From: a virus
Length of the DNA: 29,053 bases
IMG/VR virus record: IMGVR_UViG_3300025732_000199
Location: 1 to 29,053 of that record
Reading direction: 5' to 3' (one strand)
A program made the translations under genes and the position numbers. How positions within the stretch are numbered: position 1 is the first letter of the stretch; every line of letters starts with the position of its first letter. Of this stretch, positions 4,105 to 15,072 are shown one piece after another. Below the pieces are notes generated by a model, which was given only the letters and a program-made list of their open reading frames with translations, was not told the origin of the DNA and did not search any database.

Positions 4105-4797
4105 ATGGCAACAAAAATATATAATACAGACAATATTATTTTAATTGATGGAACAGATGTTTTTTTAACACCATTAAAAATAAAATATTTAAGAGAATTT
4201 ATGTTTGTATTTGAAGAAGTAAAACTTGCAACAAATGATGATGAGGCTATTACGGCATTATCGAAATGTGCTCTTGTTAGCATGCAACAATATTATCCAT
4301 CTATAAAAACAATAGAAGAGATGGAAGACAAAATTGATTTACCTAGTATTTATAAAATATTGTATATTGCTGCAGGTATTAAAATAAATAAAAATTCAGA
4401 AGAACCAGTCAAAGATCAAGCAGTAGAAAGCGGATCTACTTGGGAAACATTAGACTTGGCAAAACTAGAGTCTGAACTATTCCTGTTGGGAATCTGGAAA
4501 GATTATGATGATTTAGAATCTTCTTTATCTATGCCAGAAATATTAGCAACATTAAGCGTAAAAAGAGATTTAGACTACGATAGTAAAAAGTTTTTGGCTG
4601 CTATGCAAGGTGTAGACTTAGATAAGCAGGTAGGAAAAGATAACAGCAACGCCTGGGAAGAAATGAAGGCCAGGGTATTCAGTAAAGGTAAGACAGACAA
4701 TCCTAATGATATAACAGCCCTTCAGGGAGTTAATGCTCAAAAGGCAGGTTTTGGCATAGGTCTCGGTTTGGACTACGAAGATCTTACTCAAAAATAA
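4105..4797 (+). CDS. Tail assembly chaperone paralog A (long form), probably leaderless
   Basis: 230 residues. The N-terminal ~95 residues match the next gene's product in order: IILIDGT / IKLIDGT, PLKI, LR-x-FM, a Cys-containing helix, Y-x-P, then IDLPSIYKI / IDLPTVYKL. This domain plus the position just before the tape measure fits tail assembly chaperones (lambda G and G-T), which coat the tape measure during tail building and are absent from the virion. The C-terminal ~130 residues, unique to this copy, are acidic and helical and end with GIGLGLDYEDL; they could play the 'T' extension role. The start lies six bases after a TGCTATAAT box with no ribosome binding site, so the mRNA is probably leaderless. 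Mostly AGA/AGG arginine codons. Confidence 0.65.
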   Translation: MATKIYNTDNIILIDGTDVFLTPLKIKYLREFMFVFEEVKLATNDDEAITALSKCALVSMQQYYPSIKTIEEMEDKIDLPSIYKILYIAAGIKINKNSEEPVKDQAVESGSTWETLDLAKLESELFLLGIWKDYDDLESSLSMPEILATLSVKRDLDYDSKKFLAAMQGVDLDKQVGKDNSNAWEEMKARVFSKGKTDNPNDITALQGVNAQKAGFGIGLGLDYEDLTQK

Positions 4798-4840: not shown

Positions 4841-5173
4841 ATGGCAGATAAAACTCAGCCATCAGAAATTAAACTAATTGACGGAACAGTATTAAAGGCG
4901 GTACCACTAAAAATTTCGCTTCTACGACCTTTCATGACAAGGTTTGCGGATCTAACAAAAGTCGCCGAAGACAATGATAAATCAATGGACGTATTACTTG
5001 ATTGTGTTCAAATTGCACTTAAGCAATATAAGCCAGAACTTGCTGATGATCGTGAAGCATTAGAAGAAAATATCGATCTGCCAACAGTATATAAGTTAGT
5101 CGACGCTGCATCTGGAGTTAATCTACAGGGTGTTGACACAAACGATATTCTAAATACCGTTGGTAAAAAATAA
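4841..5173 (+). CDS. Tail assembly chaperone paralog B (short form)
   Basis: 110 residues, ATG behind AAGGAGG with a 4-base spacer, one of the strongest ribosome binding sites here. It is homologous to the N-terminal half of the previous gene's product (KLIDGT, PLKI, LRPFM, C-x-x-I-A-x-x-x-Y-x-P, IDLPTVYKL) but lacks the long C-terminal extension. The short form is comparable to lambda gpG and the long one to gpG-T, though here they are separate genes. The end reads GGT AAA AAA TAA; a -1 shift there would add only a few codons before a TGA, so no useful frameshift product is seen. The tape measure gene follows after 23 bases. Confidence 0.65.
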   Translation: MADKTQPSEIKLIDGTVLKAVPLKISLLRPFMTRFADLTKVAEDNDKSMDVLLDCVQIALKQYKPELADDREALEENIDLPTVYKLVDAASGVNLQGVDTNDILNTVGKK

Positions 5174-5196: not shown

Positions 5197-8100
5197 GTGT
5201 CAGATGTTAATGCTCATATAGGCATAGATTTTGACACGGCTGGTGCACTTGCTCAGTTAAGGCGACTTCAGGCAGGCCTTAGTACATTCTATCAAACACT
5301 TGCCGAAGGTAACCTTGCTGCAGCAAATGCCCAGAAGGGGCTTAATGCCACCCTCGCACAAAGTATTGCTGCAAATGGAAAGTTTGCGGTAAGTCAAAAA
5401 ACAGTTGCAACAAGTACATTAGCGTTTACAACTGCATTAGAAAAAAATAAATTAAGCATGAAGGAATACTTCAGGTATTCTGCTGCTGCTGCAACCGCAA
5501 ACACTAAAACTCTATCACGAATGTTTGCACAAGAACGTGAAATTATTAACCGTGCACGTAGAGATAGAGTAAAGTCATTACAGGCACAATATGTTCAAAT
5601 GGCAAAGGCGCAAGGTGGCTTTGTAGAGGCAATGCGTATTATGCCAAGAACTCTGATGATGGCAAATGGCCAGTTTACAGAACTTGGAACTAGAATTCAG
5701 TATGCAGCACAAAGACAACAGTTCTTAAATCAGTTATTAAAACAAGGATCTACAAACCTATTAAACTTTGGTAAAAACATGCAGTGGGCTGGCCGTCAGT
5801 TGATGGTAGGTTTAACAATTCCTTTAACCATGCTTGCTGGGTATGCATCTAAGGCTTTCAGAGAATTAGAAAAAGAAACAATTAAGTTTAAGCGTGTATA
5901 TGGAGATGCTTTTACAAGTCAAGCAGAAACAGATGCTGCTGTTAAAAATGTTCAAACAATTGCTAATGAATATATGAAGTTTGGTGTAGCAGTAAAGGAC
6001 ACCATGACAATGGCAGCCGATGCTGCTGCAGCAGGTTTCCAGGGCGCAGATTTAGACAAACAAATAAGATCAGCAACCAAGTTAGCGGTGCTTGGTCAGA
6101 TTGAGCAACAGCAAGCACTTGAGACAACAATATCTTTACAGAACGCATTTGGTTTGTCTGCAGATCAGTTAGCAGAAAAAATTAATTTTTTAAACGCAGT
6201 AGAAAACCAAACAGTTCTTTCTATTGAAGATTTAACAATTGCAATTCCAAAGGCTGCACCAGTTGTTAAGCAACTTGGCGGTAACGTAGAAGATCTTGCA
6301 TTCTTCCTTACAGCAATGAAAGAAGGTGGAATCAATGCGTCAGAAGGTGCCAACGCACTTAAGTCTGGATTAGCATCTATGATTAACCCAACAGAAAAAG
6401 CATCTAAGATGCTCGATGGGCTTGGTATTAATATTAAGGGAATTATTGAAGCAAATAAGGGAGACCTTAAGGGAACTGTAGTAGGTTTTGCAAGAGCACT
6501 TGATACTTTAGATCCTTTAAATCGTGCTCGTGCTATTGAACAACTATTTGGTAAATTCCAGTTTGCTCGTTTATCTACACTATTCCAGAATGTAACTAAG
6601 GATGGAAGTCAAGCATCACGTGCTCTAGATTTGGCTGGTAAGTCAGTAGAAGAACTTGCCATCCTGTCTGAACGAGAAATGAAAAAGATCGAAGAGTCTA
6701 CTACATTTAAGTTCCAGGCAGCAATGGAACAATTCAAAAAAGATATTATGCCTTTAGGAAAAGCATTTTTAGAAGCAGTTACTCCAATAGTTAAATTCTT
6801 CTCAAAGGTATTTGAAAAATTTAATAGTTTTAGTGATGGAACAAAAAAGACAATAGCCATAATAACTGGAGTAATTGCTGGTATAGGACCAATAGCCCTT
6901 ATGACCTTTGGTTTAATGGCAAACGGTATAGCAAACTTGGTTAAATTATTTGCAACATTACGAGGCGGAATAGCAAAGTTAAATGGACAAAACTCCATAC
7001 TTGGTGGAGGGTTTGACTATGTTACACAACAAGAATTAGAAAATCAAGCAGCATCTCAAGCCTTGCATAATACACACACTAGATTAGTCGAAGTATTTAA
7101 TGTTGAAAAGGTTGCAGTCAGCGAACTTGCTGCATCATATGCATCATTAGGTTCTCAGATGAGAACAATGGCATCACAGAACCCAGGTCTTTTTGCTGGA
7201 GGAGTTAGAGGAGCAAAGGGTGCAGTAAAGGGATTACCACCAGTAAGAAAATATGCTGATGGAATTTTGAGTGTTCCAGGACCAAAGGGCGCAGGCGATG
7301 TTGTCCCAGCAATGTTATCTCCACAAGAAGCAGTTATCCCTTCTGATAGAGCACAGAAGTACAGTGGTTTAATTACTGCAATTTTCAATGATAAAGTTCC
7401 AGGCTTTATGGCAGGAAGATTGCCTTGGGGAAATAATCACCCAGTAAAGCCAGTTGGACCAGTAGACATTAAGGGACCCAAGCCTTTTGCAGAAACACAA
7501 TCTCAAAGAGTTGTTGCAGAACAAATAGCAGATGCAGTTAAAGCCAGCCGATACGGCTCAACAAAGCCTACAGATTTTGGTGCATTGGTACAACCATTCT
7601 CTGGTCGTAGTTTCCCTATACCTGGAGTTGGCGGGGTATACAGAAAGCCTAACGGCAAACTAGTAGTAGTAAAGCCTACAATGGATGAAAAGACTGCATT
7701 GGCAGAAGTTCGTGCTACACAAATAGCAAGAGATGTTCATGGTTTGGTATCACCAAAACAAACTATTAGAACTATGCTTGATCCTACTGATCCTTCAGGT
7801 AAGAGAAAGTTAATTGTTTTAGAATCACCATATGATCCAAGAATTGCAGAAACTACTGGTAAGTTTACGCAAAAGGATATGATTACTCAACTTGTTGCAT
7901 CAACATTAAGAGCAGACAAAGATTTACAACAGGCAAACCTTTCTGGTAACGTGCTTGCTGACGTAGGAACTGCTGGAGTGTTTGGTAGAGCATCAGGATT
8001 TAGAGATTATCAGACAGTTCTTCCAGGAATGGGAGAGATGGGACTTATCAATTTGCTTGGCGTTAAGGGTGGTGCTAAAAAATTCTTTGCACAAGAAACA

Positions 8101-11100
8101 TCAGCACTAGCCTCTAATATGACTCCTCAACAATATGAGGCAATGATAATTAAAGAAATAGATAAGTCTTTACCTAAATTAAGAAAGTTAATAGATAGTT
8201 GGGATTTAAATCCAGTTGAAAGACAAGTCTATGAAAATATGTATAAGAGACTTGAAGATGGTAAAAAGGTAGATTGGAAAGAATTACATAGCCACCATGT
8301 TCTTGCAGGAAAAAATGTTGCAAAACGTATAGAGGGATTTGATCCTTCTCCTAATGAAAAGGCAATGAAGGAAGCAATATCTAAGTATATGCTTGAAGGA
8401 AGTCAGGTAGATGCAGTATCATCTAGACTTGTCACAGAATTAGATAATGAATTTAATAAAGAATTACAAAAGTTAAAAGAAACAAATCCTCAACGAGCAA
8501 AAGCAATACAGGCAGCATGGACTGGTGTAGATTCTGATACAGGTAGACCTGCAGGAAAGGCAAGACAAACAAAATTCCACAGTGTTCTTAAGGATATGAT
8601 TCCAGTAAATGTAAATGGTGAAACAAGATATATTCATAAAAAAGACTTTGATGATTTTGCTTCAAATCCAGATCAAAAAATTAGAAACTCCAGAACTAGA
8701 CAGGAAGTTTTAGATCAAGCATTATATAGAATGGGTCTTCGTCCTAAAGGTGGAAGACTTGTTGGCGACGGCGATTTACGTGCATCAAAGGCATTAAATG
8801 CTTCAGCCTTTGCTTTTGACATGCAGTATACTGGAAAAGGTTCTGGTGGCGGTAGAGGAAACTTATCAAAGACAGTTAAACCAATTGCTGCAGTTCAAGA
8901 AGCAGAATATAACGCAAGACTTGGAAATGTTCTTAATACTGAAGTCGGAAGACTATTACAAAAGGCTGGATATTCAGATAAAGATATTAGAAGTTATTAT
9001 CTAAGACCAGAACTTTCTCACTTAGAAGGACATGGACTAGGTGAAAGACAAGGCGCACAGTCAATGAAAACTGGCTATGCTATGTATGATGCCAGACTTA
9101 TAAATGACTTTATGCGTACTCAGAAGAGACACAATAGTATCTTAGACTGGAACGATGATCAATGGGCAAAGGTAGATAGTGGAAAGAAGGGCTACCCATT
9201 TATACCAAAAGATGAGATAGCAGATTTTAGAAAGGCTGCAGACTTTATGTCTCAGGGCAGACATCCAGTAACAGAAGCCGAAAGATTATTAGTTGCAAAA
9301 GCAGCACGTCTAGATGAACTAACATTACTTGCAAAGCAAAACGGAACTCCTATAAGAACTGGTGATTTAACTAAGAGTAACATAAATCACATTAGAGCAA
9401 TTCAGGCTGCTGCATCTCCTGGAGGAATAATACCAAGTAGATTGATGGATCTTCAAGCATTGGATTCTGGAAAAGTTTTGGTTGAGCCTGGAGAAATTCA
9501 GGTAGATAAGAAAACAAGAAAGGTTTCTATTGTTCGTGGTGGTGCAAGTGCTTCATCAGGAACAGTAAGAGTTGGAGGAAGCGCTAGAGACAAGGTTCTT
9601 GGTGATGAAAGAAGAAATACATATTTGCCAAAGCCAAGAGCGGGAGTTAAACTAGTTCCAGCATTATTTGGAAGAAAGACTGGAACTCCAGGAGAAACTA
9701 CAATAAAGAACCCTACAGTTCGTCAAGGAGAAATTGCTGCAGATTTGCGTAGAAGAGGATATAGTCAGGCTGAAATTGATAAAGCATTAAGAAAACTTGC
9801 AAAGAAAGAATTAAGAATTAAACAAACTCAAGTAGGAAAAGCAGATAAAGCAGCAAGGGTTGAGGCTGCAAGATTACAAGAACAAGAAAGAATTCAAAAA
9901 GAATCTACAGAAGCGTCAAGAAAAAATTTCTTAAAACAACAGCATAGAGAGCGATTAAATTATGCACAAGCAACACATTATGATGCTGCAGTTAGAGAAG
10001 ATCAAAAGAGAACATTAAAAGCACAACGACAAACACAAAAAGAACAAATTAAGAATAAGAGAATGATGCGCCAAGAAAAGGTTGGCAGATGGTCTGGCGG
10101 TGCTTCAATGGCCCTTGGAACTGCTGGTATGGGCTTAATGATGGCTGGTCAGCAGGATGCTGGTATGGCTGTTATGGGAGCATCTGCAGTTGCAGGTATG
10201 GCACCAATGTTAACTAACCCATACGTCGCTGCTGGAACAGCAGTTTTAGCAGTTGCTGGATCTTTATGGTTATTAGATAAAAGAGCAAAACAGCAAGCAG
10301 AAACAACTTCAAAATTAGTTGATGCAACATCAGCAACAACAGAAAAAATGAAGGCAATTGGAGAAATGACCAATCAGGTTGGTGCTTCTGAATTAATGGC
10401 AAGAAGAAGAACACAACAGTCATCAGATAGATATGTTACAGGTTTTGAAAGAGGAAAGCAACAGTTTGGAACAACGTTTTTGGAAAGCGACGTTGGGAAA
10501 AATATTCTTCAAGGCTTTAAAGATAACATTGTTCAAAATGGTGCAGAAATATCTGCTCAGCAAATGGCTGTTCAACTTGCTGGGTATGTATCAGATGGAA
10601 TTCTTTCTGCAGAGCAAGCACATAGCGTTGCAGAGTCAATAGGATTAAACTTAAAAAATACTACAATAGGTTCACAAATAAGTGGTCAGTTGTTAGACTT
10701 AATTGGTCCAAATGGTGAAGATTTATTAAAGAATCCTCTAGAAGTAAGAGTTAATTTAGTAAACGAACAAAGAGATATAAAGAAACAAATCTCCTCTGGA
10801 TTTAATAAAGATGTTAATTCTTTAAATAGTGCATGGCTTGGTTCAGAAAAGGTGATGCAAAAACTTCCAGGATTTTTGGCATATAGCGATCAAGAGTTGT
10901 TGGGAACAACAAAAACAGAAGCAACAGCCTCCGCTTTGGCTGCATATGGAGCACAAAATCTTGAATTCAATCAAGCACAAATTGATTCATTAAATGTTCA
11001 ATATGAAAAGCAAATTGCAATTTTAGAAAAAGAAAAGGCTGCAACAAGTAATAAGGCAAAACAAGCAGAAATAGAAGATAAAATTGCAACCTTAAAGTCT

Positions 11101-14100
11101 GACCAAAAGTCACAAACAGATAGTTTAAGAGCGCTAAATGGAGAACTATTAAAAGATCAACTTGCATCATTTAAGGTAGCACAGCAGAGAGGTGCTGTAG
11201 AAGATGCGTTCTTTGACTCATTAAAGTCACAAGTAAAGACAAAGTGGGCAAATGATCCTATGGCAGAAGCATTCTTAAAAACTTCTGCAGATCTTAAGAG
11301 CAAAAATTTAGAGGTAACAATAGATACAATAGTTGCATCTGGACAGTTGTCTCCAATGGCAGCAACATCTTTAATGACAATGTTTGCTGGGCAAGAAGGA
11401 GATTTGCAAAAAACATTAGAAACAGCAATTAAGTTCCAAGACCCTGGTAAGTTTATGGAAATAGTTAATTTCTTTGGGGGAATGCAAGATCAAAAGGCAG
11501 GCAAAAAGAACCTAAAGTTATTGGTAAATATGGCACAAAAGAATCCAGATAAGGCAGATAAGTTAATGTCTGCAATTGCATTAATGCAGAAAATGGATGG
11601 CAAAGAGGTTAATCTAGAAGCATTCTTTAGCGGAGACGATGCTCAGAAAAAATTAGAAGATTTAGCAAATTCATTACAAGCAGTTGAAGATCATAAGGGT
11701 CCGTTTACCCTTAAAGCATTAACAGAAGTTAAAGAACTCGGTGGCGTTAATTTAGAAGGAATTTTATCAAGATGGTCAGAGTTTGAGAATCTTCCAGATG
11801 AAACAAAGAAAACTGTTATTCAAGAATACGTTACTTTGTATAAGACTATTGATGAGTCTGCAGTAAGTGATGAAATAAAGCGTAGAGTTGCAGAAGCACC
11901 AAAAGAAAAACAAGGATGGCTTAACGCATATTACAACAGTACTGCAGGCCGAGATAAGGTAAGACAAGACCTCGCTGGCGAACGAACAATGCAAAAGGTA
12001 AAGCAAGATATTGCAAGCAAGGCAGCAGGTGCAGGAAGCACTGACGGAACTGGAAGTAAAAAGAATCCATTTGCAGATATTCTTACAAGATTAAAGAATG
12101 TTAGAAATGCAGCAATAAATGCAGCAGGTGGATTTGATGAATTAAAGAAGGCTATCGCTGCTGCAGGAGACAAGTCGGTAGCAAATAAGTTTATGGGTAT
12201 AGAGCAGCAGATGATGAAGAAGGGATACAGTAAAGACTTCATCGACTATATGACTGGACTAGACCCAACAGAACAAGCAAAGATGGGCTTCACAGCAACC
12301 AAGGCTGGTAAGCAAACATACAATCAATATAACTATAAGACTGGTAAAAATGAAAAGAAAACAGTTAAATATAAGAAGGGTGATTTTGTATTAACTGATC
12401 AAGGAAATGCAATGCGCCAAGCCTTTGATAAGGCTGTAGTTGGAGAGTTTGAGATAGCACAAAGAGATGTGTTAAAAAATATTAATGAGCAAGAAGTTGC
12501 ATATAAGACACTCAAAGGTTTAGGCTTATCTAATTTAGAAATTGAAAAGGCTATGGAAAATGAAGCATATGTAACTGCCATTGCTACTGGCCAAATCACC
12601 AAAAAAGAATTAGAGACAAATGCTGCATTACAAAAGCAAGCATTGTTAAGGGAACAAATAAAGTCTATTACAGATAAAACAAAAACAAATGAAACAAGAA
12701 TTGATGCATTAAAGAAAGCACCAGATTTAATTAATTTCTTAAGTCAATTAAAAACAATTGACGCAGAAGGCAATCAGGTATCGTTAAGCATTACATCAAT
12801 ATTTGATGCTATCCAAGATCCAGAAGATTTAATTAAAATGGTTTCAATAATGGAAGCAATTAAAAATGGAACAATTTCTGCCGAGCAAGGATATAAGGAT
12901 TTATTTAATTTTATTAGTACATCAGAAGTTGCTAAAGACTTAGAGAAGAATTTATTAACACCACTTGAAAGATTCCAAAAGGCTTACGATGCAGCAATGA
13001 AGGTATTTGATGCCTATAAGACTATGGATGAATATACATTAAAGTCTAATATAACTGGCATGGATAAAAATACTGGTGTATCAGACTACAATGGTCAAAC
13101 ATATAAGCAATTAGAAAGAACAAAGACACAAAGCGATGAAGCACTTGCTGCAATGAATGCAGAACTTGCTATTTATGAGCATCAAATTTCTATGATTAGA
13201 AGTGAGATTGATCAGATCGAACAATCTATTGAAAATACGGATGTGTCAAGTCTCAGCCTTACAGTAGATGGCAAAAAGGTAAGTGGAAAACTTAAGTATG
13301 TATTAGAAGATCTTAAGGAGCAAATTAGCGATTGGGAACGTGAGATTGAGATTAATCCTAAGTGGGGAGATCGTGCAATTAAGAAACTTCAAGATGAGAC
13401 TAACATATATTCTCATGATCTTGAGGTTATGGATCATCAGGCACAAAAGATTAATGATAAATATGATAGTCAAGTTAAGGCATTAGAAGAAGTTCAAAAG
13501 GTCAATGACTCTATCATTAGACAACAAGAACAACAGTTAAATCTTGCAGATGCTTTGACACAAGGTGATATTGCAGCAGCAGCACAAGCAGCACAGGATA
13601 TGAGAGCGGGTAACGCCGAAGCCTTTGCAACAAGTCAAACAGATGCACTTGGACAGGCTAGAGATAATGCAATTAATGCTTTAACAAATTCTCAAGGAAT
13701 GACAAAGGATCAGATAGAAGAACGTCGTTGGGAAATATCACAGCAAATTTATGCAATGGAAAATGATCCTGCAAGACTTGCTATAGAAGAAAAGATTCAG
13801 CAAGCAAAAGATGCTATTTATACAATTGAAGATAAGCGTGATGAACTGCTTCTTCAAATTAGAACTAAAGAAGAAGCAATCTATAAATTAGAACAAGACA
13901 AGGTTGTTCCGCTACAAAAACAAATAGACATCGAAACAACCAAAAATCTTGCATTAGACTATCAGTTGGTTGTATTAGGAAATATTATTGCTGCTAATGA
14001 TAGAAATAGAGAAATTGCAGGAATGACCAGAGATCAATGGGAAGAAATGCTTGCTCAGCAGACTCTCATGGATGAAAAATTAAGAAAAGATATTGCAGAT

Positions 14101-15072
14101 GCCCTTGCTTTATTTAATAAAGACAGCATGACTGCAGAAGAAACATGGAAGAGAATTAAAGAATTATACGATGCAATTAAGGATAAGACTGTAACTATAA
14201 CTGTAAATTATGTTACAGGAAGTACTGTTACTGGACCTGGAGATGGTAATACTGGAGACGGCAACACTGGAGATGGTAACACTGGAGACGGTAACACTGG
14301 AGACGGTAATACGGGGGATGGAAATACAGGAACTGGTAATACTGGTAGTGGTAATAAATCAGGAACTGGTACATCTGGTACAGTCTCTGGCGTAGATGCA
14401 GCAACACCAGAAACACCTTATAAGTCAACATGGCAAGGTATTTCTGATCCAACTGCAAGAAGCCATGTCAAGGATATGGAGACAAATATTTCTGCTAATA
14501 TTGCAGAAAACTCAAGATTGTTTGCACAAAAGATTGCAGAGAAAAAAGCAACAGAAAATGCTGGTTCGGTTGCAGGAATGCACCTTGCTGATTTAAATAG
14601 AATGGGCAACTCACTGGCTTTAGCACAAAAATATGCTGGCCCAGAATCTGCTAAGAAGCAGGCAGAAGCAATTCAAAAAGCAAATGCTGATAAGGCAGCA
14701 AAAGCAAAAGCAGCAGCAGATTTAAAGAAGTTTGGCGGAAATTCAATTGCAGCAAGCCAGTTTGCTAACTGGGGTCATGCATCTGGTGGGTTAATAAAAC
14801 GATTTGCATTTGGCGGTAATGTAATAGGAACAGATGTTGTCCCTGCAATGTTAACTCCAGGCGAGTTTATAATGAGTAGATATGCTGTACAAAAGACTGG
14901 ACTTGATGCTATGAAGGCAATAAATAACGGGGATCAAGTAGGCGACTCAGTGTATAATTATAGTATTAACGTAAATGTTAAATCTGATGCAAACCCTGAT
15001 GAAATTGCCAAGGTAGTTATGACTCATATTCAGAGGGTTAATTCACAGGCAATAAGGAGTGTAAGAGTATAA
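5197..15072 (+). CDS. Tape measure protein, giant (3291 residues)
   Basis: The protein sets tail length and is ejected with the DNA. GTG start at 5197, nine bases after AGAGGTG; an ATG at 5190 is only two bases from it and encodes six codons. Residues ~1-190 are helical. Residues ~190-540 match TP901-type tape measure cores (FGKNMQWAGRQLMVG, TMAADAAAAGFQG, MKEGGINASEGANALKSGL, LFGKFQFARLSTLF). Hydrophobic stretches lie at ~551-586 and ~1629-1694. The motif DVVPAML(S/T)P occurs at 701 and again at 3213; the latter is the usual place. Residues ~809-935 look kinase-like (GVGGVYRKPNGKLVVVKP, then DLQQAN). Residues ~2860-3000 are coiled coil, followed by GDGNT repeats. At roughly 1.5 angstrom per residue the full length would give a tail near 490 nm, fewer if the inserted domains do not span the tube. 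Confidence 0.95.
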   Translation: MSDVNAHIGIDFDTAGALAQLRRLQAGLSTFYQTLAEGNLAAANAQKGLNATLAQSIAANGKFAVSQKTVATSTLAFTTALEKNKLSMKEYFRYSAAAATANTKTLSRMFAQEREIINRARRDRVKSLQAQYVQMAKAQGGFVEAMRIMPRTLMMANGQFTELGTRIQYAAQRQQFLNQLLKQGSTNLLNFGKNMQWAGRQLMVGLTIPLTMLAGYASKAFRELEKETIKFKRVYGDAFTSQAETDAAVKNVQTIANEYMKFGVAVKDTMTMAADAAAAGFQGADLDKQIRSATKLAVLGQIEQQQALETTISLQNAFGLSADQLAEKINFLNAVENQTVLSIEDLTIAIPKAAPVVKQLGGNVEDLAFFLTAMKEGGINASEGANALKSGLASMINPTEKASKMLDGLGINIKGIIEANKGDLKGTVVGFARALDTLDPLNRARAIEQLFGKFQFARLSTLFQNVTKDGSQASRALDLAGKSVEELAILSEREMKKIEESTTFKFQAAMEQFKKDIMPLGKAFLEAVTPIVKFFSKVFEKFNSFSDGTKKTIAIITGVIAGIGPIALMTFGLMANGIANLVKLFATLRGGIAKLNGQNSILGGGFDYVTQQELENQAASQALHNTHTRLVEVFNVEKVAVSELAASYASLGSQMRTMASQNPGLFAGGVRGAKGAVKGLPPVRKYADGILSVPGPKGAGDVVPAMLSPQEAVIPSDRAQKYSGLITAIFNDKVPGFMAGRLPWGNNHPVKPVGPVDIKGPKPFAETQSQRVVAEQIADAVKASRYGSTKPTDFGALVQPFSGRSFPIPGVGGVYRKPNGKLVVVKPTMDEKTALAEVRATQIARDVHGLVSPKQTIRTMLDPTDPSGKRKLIVLESPYDPRIAETTGKFTQKDMITQLVASTLRADKDLQQANLSGNVLADVGTAGVFGRASGFRDYQTVLPGMGEMGLINLLGVKGGAKKFFAQETSALASNMTPQQYEAMIIKEIDKSLPKLRKLIDSWDLNPVERQVYENMYKRLEDGKKVDWKELHSHHVLAGKNVAKRIEGFDPSPNEKAMKEAISKYMLEGSQVDAVSSRLVTELDNEFNKELQKLKETNPQRAKAIQAAWTGVDSDTGRPAGKARQTKFHSVLKDMIPVNVNGETRYIHKKDFDDFASNPDQKIRNSRTRQEVLDQALYRMGLRPKGGRLVGDGDLRASKALNASAFAFDMQYTGKGSGGGRGNLSKTVKPIAAVQEAEYNARLGNVLNTEVGRLLQKAGYSDKDIRSYYLRPELSHLEGHGLGERQGAQSMKTGYAMYDARLINDFMRTQKRHNSILDWNDDQWAKVDSGKKGYPFIPKDEIADFRKAADFMSQGRHPVTEAERLLVAKAARLDELTLLAKQNGTPIRTGDLTKSNINHIRAIQAAASPGGIIPSRLMDLQALDSGKVLVEPGEIQVDKKTRKVSIVRGGASASSGTVRVGGSARDKVLGDERRNTYLPKPRAGVKLVPALFGRKTGTPGETTIKNPTVRQGEIAADLRRRGYSQAEIDKALRKLAKKELRIKQTQVGKADKAARVEAARLQEQERIQKESTEASRKNFLKQQHRERLNYAQATHYDAAVREDQKRTLKAQRQTQKEQIKNKRMMRQEKVGRWSGGASMALGTAGMGLMMAGQQDAGMAVMGASAVAGMAPMLTNPYVAAGTAVLAVAGSLWLLDKRAKQQAETTSKLVDATSATTEKMKAIGEMTNQVGASELMARRRTQQSSDRYVTGFERGKQQFGTTFLESDVGKNILQGFKDNIVQNGAEISAQQMAVQLAGYVSDGILSAEQAHSVAESIGLNLKNTTIGSQISGQLLDLIGPNGEDLLKNPLEVRVNLVNEQRDIKKQISSGFNKDVNSLNSAWLGSEKVMQKLPGFLAYSDQELLGTTKTEATASALAAYGAQNLEFNQAQIDSLNVQYEKQIAILEKEKAATSNKAKQAEIEDKIATLKSDQKSQTDSLRALNGELLKDQLASFKVAQQRGAVEDAFFDSLKSQVKTKWANDPMAEAFLKTSADLKSKNLEVTIDTIVASGQLSPMAATSLMTMFAGQEGDLQKTLETAIKFQDPGKFMEIVNFFGGMQDQKAGKKNLKLLVNMAQKNPDKADKLMSAIALMQKMDGKEVNLEAFFSGDDAQKKLEDLANSLQAVEDHKGPFTLKALTEVKELGGVNLEGILSRWSEFENLPDETKKTVIQEYVTLYKTIDESAVSDEIKRRVAEAPKEKQGWLNAYYNSTAGRDKVRQDLAGERTMQKVKQDIASKAAGAGSTDGTGSKKNPFADILTRLKNVRNAAINAAGGFDELKKAIAAAGDKSVANKFMGIEQQMMKKGYSKDFIDYMTGLDPTEQAKMGFTATKAGKQTYNQYNYKTGKNEKKTVKYKKGDFVLTDQGNAMRQAFDKAVVGEFEIAQRDVLKNINEQEVAYKTLKGLGLSNLEIEKAMENEAYVTAIATGQITKKELETNAALQKQALLREQIKSITDKTKTNETRIDALKKAPDLINFLSQLKTIDAEGNQVSLSITSIFDAIQDPEDLIKMVSIMEAIKNGTISAEQGYKDLFNFISTSEVAKDLEKNLLTPLERFQKAYDAAMKVFDAYKTMDEYTLKSNITGMDKNTGVSDYNGQTYKQLERTKTQSDEALAAMNAELAIYEHQISMIRSEIDQIEQSIENTDVSSLSLTVDGKKVSGKLKYVLEDLKEQISDWEREIEINPKWGDRAIKKLQDETNIYSHDLEVMDHQAQKINDKYDSQVKALEEVQKVNDSIIRQQEQQLNLADALTQGDIAAAAQAAQDMRAGNAEAFATSQTDALGQARDNAINALTNSQGMTKDQIEERRWEISQQIYAMENDPARLAIEEKIQQAKDAIYTIEDKRDELLLQIRTKEEAIYKLEQDKVVPLQKQIDIETTKNLALDYQLVVLGNIIAANDRNREIAGMTRDQWEEMLAQQTLMDEKLRKDIADALALFNKDSMTAEETWKRIKELYDAIKDKTVTITVNYVTGSTVTGPGDGNTGDGNTGDGNTGDGNTGDGNTGDGNTGTGNTGSGNKSGTGTSGTVSGVDAATPETPYKSTWQGISDPTARSHVKDMETNISANIAENSRLFAQKIAEKKATENAGSVAGMHLADLNRMGNSLALAQKYAGPESAKKQAEAIQKANADKAAKAKAAADLKKFGGNSIAASQFANWGHASGGLIKRFAFGGNVIGTDVVPAMLTPGEFIMSRYAVQKTGLDAMKAINNGDQVGDSVYNYSINVNVKSDANPDEIAKVVMTHIQRVNSQAIRSVRV
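14239..14358 (+). repeat. Tandem 15-bp repeat encoding GDGNT pentapeptides
   Basis: Eight in-frame 15-base units inside the tape measure gene. The first six encode GDGNT and the last two are variants (GTGNT, GSGNK). Third codon positions vary between units (GAT/GAC, GGT/GGC/GGA, AAT/AAC), so the copies are old or kept at the protein level. The repeat forms a flexible, Gly/Asp/Asn-rich linker between the coiled-coil segment and the C-terminal region. Confidence 0.95.

Follow-up and report, generated by a model that had tools for sequence, protein, structure and literature searches.

The tape measure protein (TMP) encoded in the virus record IMGVR_UViG_3300025732_000199 carries a predicted kinase-like domain in its middle part. 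Structural models, fold searches and conservation make it very probable that TMP residues ~786-1045 adopt a kinase-type fold. A set of candidate active-site residues is complete, and we consider it likely, with activity being the less certain part, that the domain is also catalytically competent. Judged from sequence comparisons among related TMPs, the domain belongs to a variable region of the protein, where it is an optional module. The explanation that fits best is a divergent kinase-fold TMP module that is injected and phosphorylates host targets; its transport and its phosphotransfer are the steps that we infer, and we regard this full reading as having about an even chance. All positions refer to the window, which is the whole stretch of DNA analysed (29,053 bases); the features are listed in Table 1.

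The open reading frame of the TMP matches the Pfam family PhageMin_Tail (PF10145) at residues 262-452 (2e-26) and the tape measure family PHROG 10030 (7e-100). Upstream lie two genes whose position is that of tail chaperones, and downstream a gene for a minor tail protein, so that both the profile matches and the expected slot among the tail genes agree with the assignment. The two upstream genes (4105-4797 and 4841-5173) are adjacent and have a domain of ~86 residues in common (38% identical, PHROG 10504); this is a duplicated tail-chaperone-like gene, where a single frameshifted gene would be usual. Cultured phages are related only distantly, the nearest being Streptomyces phages (TMP N-terminus 29.5%, DnaE 55%, minor tail protein 24%) and the host of the window phage is therefore probably an actinobacterium. 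In phage Faust, the similarity to the window TMP is confined to the N-terminal part.

Table 1. Positions of the TMP gene, its regions and the motifs of the kinase-like domain in the window
Feature	TMP residues	Window positions	Strand	Basis
TMP, 3291 aa, GTG start		5197-15072	+	ORF, Pfam, PHROG
Conserved N-terminal arm, common to TMPs without the kinase-like domain	1-743	5197-7425	+	identity to L254
VPAMLSPQEAVIP motif, directly upstream of the variable region	702-741	7300-7419	+	sequence
Variable middle region between conserved arms	~746-1600	7432-9996	+	rejoin points, conservation drop
Kinase-like domain (predicted)	~786-1045	7552-8331	+	AlphaFold models, Foldseek, conservation island
Gly-rich loop, beta2 and beta3 with Lys, GVGGVYRKPNGKLVVVKP	810-827	7624-7677	+	in-frame sequence, conservation
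K826 codon		7672-7674	+	beta3 Lys
E837 (alphaC), which may form a salt bridge with K826		7705-7707	+	conservation, model helix
beta5 and hinge, LIVLESPYDP	872-881	7810-7839	+	model strand
Catalytic loop RADKDLQQAN with D907, D909, N914	905-914	7909-7938	+	conservation
DLQQAN	909-914	7921-7938	+	in-frame sequence
D922-V-G, candidate metal-binding D-x-G after minimal beta7-beta8 hairpin		7960-7968	+	conservation, model strands
Helical C-terminal part, five helices	945-1036	8029-8304	+	DSSP of model
Second, more divergent module, same variable region	~1170-1470	8704-9606	+	conserved residues

With 51 sequences, AlphaFold modelled the domain of the window at a mean pLDDT of 88.7 and a pTM of 0.85. 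The N-lobe of this model begins with beta1 (796-800), the Gly loop, beta2 (813-816) and beta3 with K826 (822-827), followed by alphaC with E837 (831-846; model residues 67-82), beta4 and beta5 (871-878; model residues 107-114). The hinge leads into alphaE (892-904) and the catalytic loop (905-914); two strands of two residues each (model residues 151-152 and 155-156) then flank G917-N918, and D922, an extended segment and five helices complete the domain. A second model, of the trimmed domain from L318, which among the relatives is the most divergent (38% identity to the window), reached a pLDDT of 92.6 and a pTM of 0.90 with the same order of elements; according to DSSP, both models have the kinase order of N-lobe strands and alphaC, hinge, catalytic loop and metal-Asp loop.

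Foldseek searches of the PDB point in the same direction: CtkA (E 1.4e-3, probability 1.00) heads the 50 matches listed for the window model, every one of which is a kinase or a kinase fold; the 50 listed for the L318 model likewise comprise only kinases, their complexes or kinase folds, CtkA (16th among them) and HipA included. The TM-scores are 0.33-0.40 for CtkA and 0.2-0.4 for solved kinases overall, with E-values of ~1e-3 for both models; the main strength of the fold case is the kinases-only lists for both models, rather than any one score. As the PDB E-values are only ~1e-3 and the TM-scores are below 0.4, we describe the C-lobe as divergent: in the models, the N-lobe and the catalytic loop resemble kinases, while the C-lobe is divergent or unlike. 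A viral library gave 10 matches at E <= 1e-3. Some of these phage proteins are annotated as PI3/PI4-kinase or as multidomain ADP-ribosyltransferase, and they are better fold matches (E ~1e-5) than the PDB kinases (~1e-3).

A preliminary description of the DNA had placed a kinase-like segment at 7600-8010, and had named structure prediction and a fold search as the check. The kinase-like layout that it had read from the letters is now found as predicted kinase topology in two models, with fold searches that return kinases (E ~1e-3, TM below 0.4), and all its motifs (Gly-rich loop and K826, E837, LIVLESPYDP, DLQQAN and D922-V-G) are in frame, exactly where it had put them. Only the extent needs revision: the N-terminal half does lie inside the domain, but the domain reaches residue ~1045 (window ~8331), so that the end at 8010 was set too early and cut off the helical C-terminal half.

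For the analysis of conservation, IMG/VR was scanned for relatives of the domain, giving 14 and, with a wider alignment, 307 (the best 80 per scan were taken). The alignments grew from 62 to 104 distinct sequences and then to 132 rows, with identity down to 38%; the 132 rows are the 104 distinct sequences plus 28 from a search with the TMP N-terminus, some from the same contigs. Conservation of the residues named in the preliminary description had been its second check, and K826, D909, N914 and D922 are indeed invariant in all 132 rows, as is D907; position 837 is E in 126 rows, D in four and Q in two. R905, K826 and P827 are present in 104 of 104 distinct sequences. In the Gly-rich loop, G813 is found in 131/132 rows (one gap) and G812 in 123/132, with S or A in eight. 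Across residues 786-1034, only 19 of 249 columns are invariant in the 132 rows, and these include K826, D909, N914 and D922 (P = 2.5e-5 for random placement). The median dN/dS for close pairs of the domain is 0.15. Along the TMP, the domain forms an island of conservation that nearly matches the N-terminal arm and ends in a steep fall after residue ~1020. Conservation and occupancy are also low near the TMP C-terminus, at a 15-base repeat that occurs eight times (14237-14356; GDGNT repeats).

From the sequence and the models, these residues would make a complete candidate active site, with K826 and E837 for ATP positioning, D909 as catalytic base and N914 and D922 for metal binding. Two details are atypical. 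The catalytic loop reads D-K-D-L, instead of H-R-D-L, and the distance from N914 to D922 is 8 residues, against about 13 in kinases. The short distance, which had been noticed from the letters, proves to be a fixed trait of the family, with zero exceptions in a pattern check of the 104 sequences; in the model it is explained by the reduction of beta7 and beta8 to a tight two-strand hairpin with a two-residue turn.

Profile searches returned no match of the domain to kinase families in Pfam, NCBIfam, PHROGs and PDB sequences. In particular, neither the window nor any of 51 relatives had a Pfam match to PI3_PI4_kinase (PF00454), and the HipA family is absent from the Pfam matches of the domain. 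Three proteins were tried individually: HSTV-2 gp16, HHTV-1 gp13 and Escherichia coli HipA, scored with the family profile, gave zero significant matches, and an hhalign alignment of HSTV-2 gp16 with the family profile was insignificant and out of register. No member of the family was found among the phages in GenBank (50,697 phage records; the single match, with E 0.7, is a chance match), and a peptide-pattern scan of GTDB genomes found no relatives. By the tests run, the domain is thus outside PF00454, HipA and the polyvalent-protein kinases of Iyer et al.; it is kinase-like by its fold and active site.

Among known systems, the atypical Ser/Thr kinases of the HipA/CtkA type (3akk, 3akl, 4pu5) include CtkA, the top PDB match of the window model, and HipA, which is also listed, and they likewise have a Lys-Asp-Asn-Asp active site; the TMP domain differs in its low TM-scores (0.35-0.40) and in having no sequence similarity to them, in the shortened hairpin before the metal Asp and in being embedded in a TMP. 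HSTV-2 gp16, a protein of a haloarchaeal tailed virus, likewise has a kinase-type domain (a PI3/PI4-kinase segment) encoded among virion genes, in the head/tail gene module (fold match E 6.3e-4); VFKP surrounds its candidate beta3 Lys, and its catalytic loop has the form D-x4-N. It is, however, not a TMP, its N-to-D spacing is 13, and it has a weak match to PF00454 (1.5e-5, below cut-off) that the TMP domain lacks. HHTV-1 gp13, a protein of 1100 aa from the head gene module that the fold search matched at E 7.4e-6, aligns GNRDIHGGN under the family's RgDkDLqksN, which puts D909 and N914 where they are expected, in an alignment that is insignificant alone; it too is not a TMP and has a spacing of 13, and its architecture is different, with two segments that look metallopeptidase-like by eye.

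Polyvalent proteins offer another parallel: some of these large phage proteins, which are presumed to enter the cell along with the DNA, have kinase domains embedded in them (Iyer et al. 2017, PMC5512222). These kinases have lost the C-terminal subdomain and have a conserved His before the catalytic Asp, whereas the TMP domain has five helices after the active site and lacks the His; TMPs are not mentioned in that paper. Enzyme domains that act during entry are known from TMPs themselves (mycobacteriophage TM4; enterococcal lytic transglycosylases, PMC10194240). Those are peptidoglycan hydrolases that work on the cell wall, while a kinase needs ATP and would therefore be useful in the cytoplasm.

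The distribution of the domain suggests a module. All 95 of the 95 5'-complete open reading frames with distinct copies of the domain are TMPs, and among 54 complete related TMPs (from the best 80 matches of a search with the TMP N-terminus, a few of them near-identical) 19 have the domain and 35 lack it. One of those that lack it, L254, is 73% identical to the window TMP over residues 1-743; the similarity stops there and rejoins at residue 1298, while other TMPs without the domain rejoin at ~1588-1619. In relatives, the domain starts at residue ~700-850 of most TMPs and at ~950-1400 of others. The variable start and the rejoining arms indicate that the TMP middle is a variable region with the kinase-like domain among its contents. 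These TMPs have two copies of a VPAMLxPGE-type motif, one directly ahead of the variable region and one C-terminal (window ~14779-14934), and the relatives' copies of the upstream motif match residues 3195-3246 of the window TMP. The pair could mark boundaries that are used for module exchange.

A folded domain of ~30 kDa is too bulky for the lumen of a siphophage tail that holds several TMP copies. The module should thus not fit beside the other copies when folded and would have to be threaded in extended form and refold. During DNA entry, TMPs reportedly exit the tail and make contact with inner-membrane proteins or machinery (PMC13190303, PMC11445458). On this basis, the kinase-like module may travel in the tail tube in extended form as part of the TMP, be pushed into the host as the TMP exits ahead of the DNA and refold in the host cytoplasm, where, early in infection, it would move phosphate from ATP to host proteins, or possibly to lipids or small molecules; defence could, for example, be blunted, or transcription or translation retuned. 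That the domain is delivered into the host and acts there seems to us about evenly poised between right and wrong. Host proteins as the default substrate are a guess by analogy to the injected polyvalent-protein kinases (PMC5512222).

Two alternatives, both unlikely and to a similar degree, accept the kinase fold but change its place or its chemistry. First, an active enzyme could be used in the producing cell during tail assembly, on the TMP, the chaperones or a host factor, and not be injected. The intact active site also suits this, as does the fact that synthesis of the TMP and its binding by chaperones precede completion of the tail; two chaperone-like genes are directly upstream. But the absence of the domain from 35 of the 54 complete related TMPs, many of them close, speaks against any general need for it in assembly, and we have set a general assembly role aside; optional carriage suits an accessory better, and we prefer action in the newly infected cell after ejection to action in the producing cell before assembly. 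Second, the substrate may not be a protein, or the chemistry may be another one (phosphorylation of lipids or small molecules, AMP transfer, or regulation by nucleotide binding). This would agree with the PI3/PI4-kinase and multidomain ADP-ribosyltransferase annotations among the top viral fold matches, and with the D-K-D-L loop and the atypical D-x-G spacing; the lack of a Pfam PI3_PI4_kinase match and the full K/E/D/N/D set, which resembles protein phosphotransferases, argue against it.

Less probable still is a structural spacer or pseudokinase, that is, a kinase-derived fold that serves as tape measure part, plug or channel element and catalyses nothing. The domain does sit in a structural protein and its global fold match is weak, but its catalytic residues count among its most constant positions, unlike those of pseudokinases, and as an optional domain it is dispensable for length measurement. 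An unrelated fold with chance motif resemblance, which the lack of a sequence profile match and TM-scores below 0.4 to solved kinases might suggest, is very improbable and was set aside, as it is contradicted by the conservation and by two independent high-confidence models with kinase topology whose PDB matches listed (50 each) are kinases or kinase folds only.

Kinase domains in virion-module or injected proteins of phages are already known, as are enzyme domains in TMPs, which in the papers found are all cell-wall hydrolases (PMC10194240). Searches of open-access papers turned up no kinase-like domain inside a TMP. If the preferred reading of an injected kinase is true, a kinase module that is both conserved and optional would make the ruler of the tail a vehicle for effectors as well; effector delivery has so far been described mainly for capsid-borne proteins. 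The family lends itself to tests: it comprises some hundred distinct sequences, of which cultured phages yielded none, and the residues for mutation are named. More tentatively, at somewhat less than even chances, a large group of uncultured phages may have an exchangeable payload region in the middle of the TMP, one payload being an active ATP-dependent kinase from a new family, which would be threaded into the host before the DNA and there modify its targets at the very start of infection.

The same variable region holds a second module with conserved H1275, D1298, N1303, H1356-P1357 and E1433, which is partly common to TMPs without the kinase-like domain. Neither this module nor the middle regions of nine TMPs lacking the kinase-like domain have a Pfam match above cut-off; the second module could be another enzyme. 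The TMP of one relative (L179; 3792-16211, 4140 aa) combines the kinase-like domain with C-terminal CHAP and LysM cell-wall domains. In three others (L028, L051 and L189), the TMP frames stop early after the kinase-like domain (at 2035, 2201 and 1790 codons, respectively), which may reflect split genes or sequencing errors.
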